From: Deltaproteobacteria bacterium
Lineage (GTDB): Bacteria > Myxococcota_A > Polyangia > Polyangiales > Polyangiaceae
Assembly: GCA_016218915.1 (NCBI GenBank)
Contig: JACRCQ010000074.1
Span: 124,001 to 188,000 of the forward strand
DNA: 64,000 nucleotides
Direction of reading: 5' to 3'
Shown here: piece by piece, positions 17,315-17,557 of the stretch
Numbering within the stretch: the stretch's first letter is position 1
Layout of the letters: every line of letters begins with the position of its first letter
The notes under the pieces: generated by a model
Told to the model about the DNA's origin: nothing
The model's database searches: none
What the model saw: the letters and a program-made list of their open reading frames with translations, nothing else
Position numbers and translations under genes: made by a program

Positions 17315-17557
17315 GTCCAGCTTTGTAAGGAGGTCCGATCGCACGAGCCCGTCATGCTGCGGCGTTACGCCGTGGCGGAGTCTGCTCTACCATGCATCCC
17401 CACGCCCGATATTCTTTTGGGCCCAGGGGTGCCCACACACCATCCTGAGTCGACATCAAGAGTCGCTGGTTGTGTGGGCACGCCCCGGGCCCTCGGTGAT
17501 CGGACGCGGTCCTTCGCACGAAGTCGAGCGCAATCGGGCCTCCTTACAGGGCTGGAC
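17315..17557 (+). ncRNA. Retron msr-msd non-coding RNA
   Basis: a1 GTCCAGCTTTGTAAGGAGGTCCGAT (17315-17339) pairs with a2 ATCGGGCCTCCTTACAGGGCTGGAC (17533-17557) over 25 bp: 22 Watson-Crick plus 3 G-U. msr hairpin CGGCG-TTA-CGCCG (17360-17372). Long msd hairpin 17419-17442 / 17467-17492. Lies directly upstream of the RT. Confidence 0.88.

Follow-up and report, generated by a model that had tools for sequence, protein, structure and literature searches.

A complete type XIII retron on a myxobacterial chromosome, with a covarying msr-msd RNA and a SWIM protein of possible sliding-clamp fold

Myxococcus xanthus was the source of the first msDNA to be isolated, in 1984 (PMC6868368), and Retron-Mxa1 (Mx162) and Retron-Mxa2 (Mx65) of this species resemble the locus treated here, when likened by description, in the extended N-terminus of the reverse transcriptase (RT) and in the myxobacterial host (PMC6868368). 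The branch site of Mx65 reads GAGC (PMC6868368), as does the sequence at the predicted branch base G17347 here. In known retrons, a complex of RT and msDNA is paired with an effector, which phage sets free or activates. For the retrons of type XIII, neither a functional study nor a record of anti-phage activity was found in the literature searched. Here, we analyze a 64-kb stretch (the window) of the Deltaproteobacteria bacterium assembly GCA_016218915.1, contig JACRCQ010000074.1. Judged from its sequence, this myxobacterial stretch holds a type XIII retron that is complete and chromosomal; the locus is a further member of an already known retron type and, as a kind, is ordinary. Its components all lie on the plus strand in the order HEAT-ARM, SWIM, ncRNA and RT. 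The assignment to type XIII is based on PADLOC models, which label the three proteins found here as the type XIII components HEAT-ARM_XIII, SWIM_XIII and RT_XIII:

13616..15301, + strand, HEAT-ARM_XIII gene (PADLOC HEAT-ARM_XIII E 1e-160, residues 92-645)
15298..17295, + strand, SWIM_XIII gene (665 aa; PADLOC SWIM_XIII E 3.2e-170, residues 1-544; same order in relatives)
17586..19202, + strand, retron RT (538 aa, start codon GTG 17586; PADLOC RT_XIII E 6.6e-161; Pfam RVT_1 E 1.7e-16)

The start of the SWIM gene overlaps the HEAT-ARM stop as ATGA, and the RT begins 28 nt past the end of the RNA's a2 arm. The RT carries an N-terminal extension of about 200 aa, and the class RT_XIII is assigned to all 27 aligned RT members. 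The same genome has a second reverse transcriptase gene, L001 (G000:C21:68987-69619), that is unlike type XIII. The HEAT-ARM open frame runs from GTG 13346 and the relatives align from residue ~90; the true start is probably GTG 13616, since residue ~91 is where homology sets in and where the model becomes confident. In its AlphaFold model residues 1-88 are mostly of low confidence and the remainder forms HEAT/ARM helices, for which a structure search returned generic HEAT/ARM matches only. Domain profile searches recognised no toxin domain in either the SWIM or the HEAT-ARM protein. The flanking genes, which encode a ligand-gated channel homologue, an expansin-like protein and a fibro-slime/PA14 protein, look unrelated to the retron. 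The first of these (10924-12195) is a homologue of the pentameric ligand-gated ion channels (Pfam Neur_chan_LBD E 5e-14), and it is adjoined by the expansin EXLX1-like gene at 12226-13287.

That the segment 17315-17557 is the msr-msd ncRNA of this retron we regard as nearly certain. Its parts are as follows:

17315..17339, + strand, a1 arm, GTCCAGCTTTGTAAGGAGGTCCGAT (fold and covariation)
17344..17350, + strand, CGAGCCC, almost invariant, with the predicted branching G17347 (C17344, G, A and G17347 in 31/31 loci; C17348 in 30/31)
17355..17377, + strand, msr stem-loop, TGCTGCGGCG-TTA-CGCCGTGGCG (97% of cells paired, 30 distinct sequences)
17400..17410, + strand, msd basal stem, 5' side (98.5% of cells paired; two-sided changes in 5/9 pairs)
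17419..17442, + strand, msd distal stem, 5' arm (fold; fast-evolving sequence, pairing kept in 78% of cells)
17467..17492, + strand, msd distal stem, 3' arm (fold)
17499..17509, + strand, msd basal stem, 3' side (31-locus alignment)
17523..17526, + strand, GTCG, near-invariant (31/31, 31/31, 31/31 and 30/31; TCG pairs with CGA 17344-17346)
17533..17557, + strand, a2 arm, ATCGGGCCTCCTTACAGGGCTGGAC (fold and covariation)

A first-pass annotation had proposed a 25-bp a1/a2 stem containing three G-U pairs, and the arms are indeed fully complementary, with wobbles at a1 positions 8, 9 and 20, each of them a U in a1 facing a G in a2. This helix scores 61; dinucleotide shuffles of the region average 24.6 (sd 3.2), the best of 500 reaching 36, and the runner-up helix of similar span in the whole window scores 44. 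The pairing continues toward the branch site at 17341-17342 and then through the invariant CGA/TCG triplet (17344-17346/17524-17526); the helix is therefore longer than 25 bp. The folding check suggested at the time gave -138.7 kcal/mol for the 243-nt element (z = -8.35), with none of 200 shuffles as stable. The orientation proposed for the pairing, as RNA of the plus strand, also held: a covariance model of the element scores 202.7 bits on this strand and 26.3 on the other. Most of the stem covaries freely, though the GGAG at 17329-17332 within a1 is nearly invariant (29-31 of 31 loci). As a ribosome site, the GGAGG of a1 was rejected, the nearest ATG being 20 nt off and the motif buried in the stem. 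In several relatives a1 begins a few bases from the SWIM stop codon, which suggests that the ncRNA is processed from the operon transcript; no sigma-70-like promoter was found, though the RNA may derive from that transcript. An Rfam search of the window matched no family.

The candidate branching G had been placed in the AGC of 17346-17348. This AGC is present and lies within an almost invariant CGAGCC (17344-17349), and the predicted priming guanosine G17347, at the end of the a1/a2 helix, is conserved in all 31 loci. The pairing of CGA with TCG makes it the first base past the helix, where retrons prime. On the opposite side, G17523 is likely to be the first template base, and it is there that we infer the template to start. 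The msd arms described earlier (17419-17442/17467-17492) do pair, but they form only the distal part of the hairpin, below which lies a conserved basal stem (17400-17410/17499-17509); the loop between them can fold a small inner stem. The msd hairpin thus has a conserved base and a fast-changing apex. By analogy with Mx162, which has an 8-base overlap (PMC6868368), we predict an msDNA of ~125-130 nt, as compared with the 162 nt of Mx162; when folded, the predicted molecule gives a long hairpin (z -5.8).

The same gene order occurs in Pyxidicoccus, Myxococcus, Archangium, other Myxococcota and one planctomycete; in the close relatives with full-length contigs, where order and spacing were compared, both are the same. 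Long arms precede the RT in the relatives as well, mostly 223-265 nt apart and quite different in sequence. When 10 of these ncRNAs are aligned, 94.2% of the cells are paired and 35/64 pairs have two-sided changes; for 31 ncRNAs (the window and 30 relatives) the values are 91.1% and 39/56. The observed covariation was never reached by shuffles (0/500), and controls in which the structure was slid along the alignment were 38-48% paired as against 91-94%, a comparison that favours the real structure, as it was derived from the same alignments of related sequences. The a1/a2 helix by itself has two-sided changes in 20/23 pairs. Hence the arms, for which the first-pass annotation had called for a covariation check across homologues, covary strongly in both alignments (10 and 31 loci), and the proposal withstood the refutation set for it there, homologous loci without covarying arms. 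The covariance model, built from the 10 loci, matches upstream of the RT in a strand-specific manner in more than 20 loci outside its training set (for example, L125 with 168 bits, L118 with 141 and L041 with 93), and in its own genome it finds a single copy above noise. The retron ncRNA reading is thus borne out both by an intact RT_XIII just downstream and by the model's matches upstream of the RT elsewhere. A related retron, L162 (G264, C1:15278000-15297900), is split: HEAT-ARM, a SWIM protein with a ribbon-helix-helix (RHH) tail and the ncRNA are contiguous, and the RT is found 8.3 kb farther downstream with unrelated genes in between, so that close linkage cannot be a requirement in that case. 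The RT of L119 was considered as an orphan and this was rejected, as an ncRNA was found ~8 kb upstream.

The features of the SWIM protein are these:

15385..16407, + strand, part resembling DNA sliding clamps (aa ~30-370, limits estimated from secondary structure; AlphaFold and Foldseek)
16804..16920, + strand, SWIM zinc finger CxC...CxH (aa ~503-541; C519, C521, C534 and H536 invariant)
16957..17088, + strand, first CdbA/TIGR04563-like ribbon-helix-helix repeat (aa 554-597; TIGR04563 E 1.9e-4; model strand 554-562, helices 563-576 and 580-597)
17143..17289, + strand, second CdbA/TIGR04563-like ribbon-helix-helix repeat (aa 616-664; TIGR04563 E 1.8e-11; CdbA 6sbw E 1.1e-6; model strand 616-624, helices 625-637 and 642-664)

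The model of its main part possibly has the fold of a DNA sliding clamp. In a Foldseek search of the PDB the best match had E 2.6e-7 and probability 1.00, the top 50 matches were all PCNA or 9-1-1, and the TM-scores by target were 0.40-0.68, apart from one 758-residue entry; in a viral library, searched separately, clamps lead too. Given the mean pLDDT of the AlphaFold model, 74.5, and the large rmsd values, we hold the fold unproven. Profile searches gave no sequence support for it, an hhalign comparison of this part with an archaeal PCNA was negative, and no PCNA relatives from which a profile could be built were found in the scanned viral contigs. The clamp likeness of the type XIII SWIM protein appears to be undescribed in the literature searched.

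Of 26 members, 25 match the Pfam SWIM profile, the best with E 1.4e-5; the window protein falls below the cut-off at E 0.023. At 665 aa, this protein is longer than those of close relatives without a tail (557-595 aa), and its C-terminus consists of tandem RHH repeats of the CdbA type, for which CdbA is the nearest solved structure. Both repeats score below TIGR04563's whole-protein cut-off; the AlphaFold model gives the tail two strand-helix-helix units, an RHH fold of the TIGR04563/CdbA type. The tail recurs in L118, L121, L124, L129, L130, L136, L143, L145 and G264, which all belong to the same taxonomic family as the window, and has so far been seen in this one myxobacterial family only; it is absent from L125, which is nested among the tailed loci. 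On the RT tree, which has open forks, two changes are needed, and this fits one gain and one loss. A tandem RHH tail on a retron SWIM protein also appears undescribed in the literature searched. The key residues of repeat 2 read P, S, R and V; with two of the four missing, c-di-GMP sensing by the tail was lowered as a candidate role, and we do not class it as a c-di-GMP receptor. In another type XIII subclade (L147-L154) the SWIM protein ends in a module of ~60 aa that is WGR-like to the eye; with no Pfam or PADLOC match, WGR identity is not claimed for it.

The plan of the operon matches the scheme of RT-msDNA and effector in known retrons, and from this match we infer how it might work. On established retron biology, the RT would bind the msr, prime from the 2'-OH of G17347 and copy the msd leftwards, starting around G17523 and stopping near the msr; the product would be a branched molecule of RNA and DNA, the DNA forming a long hairpin. 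Less certainly, the RT and msDNA may keep the SWIM/HEAT pair in an inactive complex, from which a change induced by phage in the msDNA or in replication intermediates would free it and arrest the cell. In this subclade, the RHH tail would probably add a contact with duplex DNA, be it the msDNA hairpin, the nucleoid or the operon's own promoter; the possible clamp fold, the SWIM finger and this tail would all point to DNA as the target. We have good confidence in the explanation as a whole, namely a type XIII retron ncRNA, msDNA synthesis and control of a SWIM/HEAT effector, and we lean only slightly toward a defence mechanism, which is argued by analogy. Against the explanation count the altered NAXXH motif of the RT, the failure to recognise a toxin domain in the two accessory proteins or to find a sigma-70-like promoter, and the distant RT of G264. 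More tentatively, and with the balance against it, the type XIII SWIM protein could be a sliding-clamp relative joined to a SWIM finger (and, in one subclade, to an RHH tail) that acts at replication forks; the msDNA hairpin with its primer-like end would then serve this protein as a decoy substrate, and once a phage replicates or the msDNA is removed, the protein would be free to act on phage or host DNA.

It is conceivable, if rather improbable, that the msDNA serves myxobacterial housekeeping, such as chromosome organisation or the response to replication stress, instead of phage defence. Vertical inheritance of myxobacterial retrons has been argued (PMC6868368), the RHH repeats of the SWIM protein are like those of CdbA, which is a nucleoid protein (PMC7156744), and the clamp-like fold of the model would suit such a role. 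But RT_XIII is patchily present, in 111 of the 318 genomes of the class, the operon is effector-like as in other retrons, and the arms change fast. We think it unlikely that the retron is decayed, its ncRNA intact and its RT no longer making msDNA. The NAXXH motif of the RT reads AAAPH in the window, as against NAxxH in 24 of 26 relatives, and the end branch of this RT on the RT tree is longish (0.48); yet the two other relatives have CAxxH, with C replacing N at the same position, the frame is open over 538 aa and keeps YADD and VTG, pairing is perfect in a1/a2 and in the basal msd stem, and the operon is complete. Finally, it is scarcely credible that the inverted repeat, although it sits just ahead of the RT start and includes a GGAGG motif, regulates the RT as an attenuator, a terminator or the end of a mobile element and is not itself reverse-transcribed, since the site has no T run or terminator prediction, the almost invariant branch-site motif and the msr/msd anatomy extend across 31 loci, and in G264 the ncRNA stays with the SWIM gene while the RT is ~8 kb away.

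Read as a type XIII retron, the locus anchors its ncRNA fully, by a branch site that hardly varies and by arms and stems for which 31 loci give covariation support, and it provides a covariance model for an RNA that has no Rfam match in this window. It also offers two clues to the function of the effector, the possible clamp fold and a fused, predicted DNA-binding tail, which together could explain what these ancient elements do; the clamp reading, if true, would tie retron biology directly to DNA replication.

Compared with the known systems, the locus agrees with the type XIII retrons in its three protein models (E 1e-160 to 3e-170), in the ncRNA between SWIM and RT and in orientation, and departs from them in a SWIM protein that runs ~120 residues (the tandem RHH) past the 509-position SWIM_XIII model. 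The retrons of Pyxidicoccus fallax and Myxococcus sp. RHSTA-1-4 (L033 and L039) have the same operon, an RT ~60% identical overall and an ncRNA that aligns end to end; unlike that of the window, their SWIM proteins end soon after the zinc finger, without RHH repeats. SWIM repeat 2 aligns gap-free over 44 residues (E 1.1e-6) with M. xanthus CdbA (PDB 6sbw), a nucleoid protein of RHH type that is also a receptor for c-di-GMP, but here the RHH is fused in tandem to a retron protein. The DNA sliding clamps (PCNA, 9-1-1 and phage clamps) are like the SWIM AlphaFold model in fold, with TM-scores by target of up to 0.68, and the model differs from them in its extra helices and in having no detectable sequence similarity.
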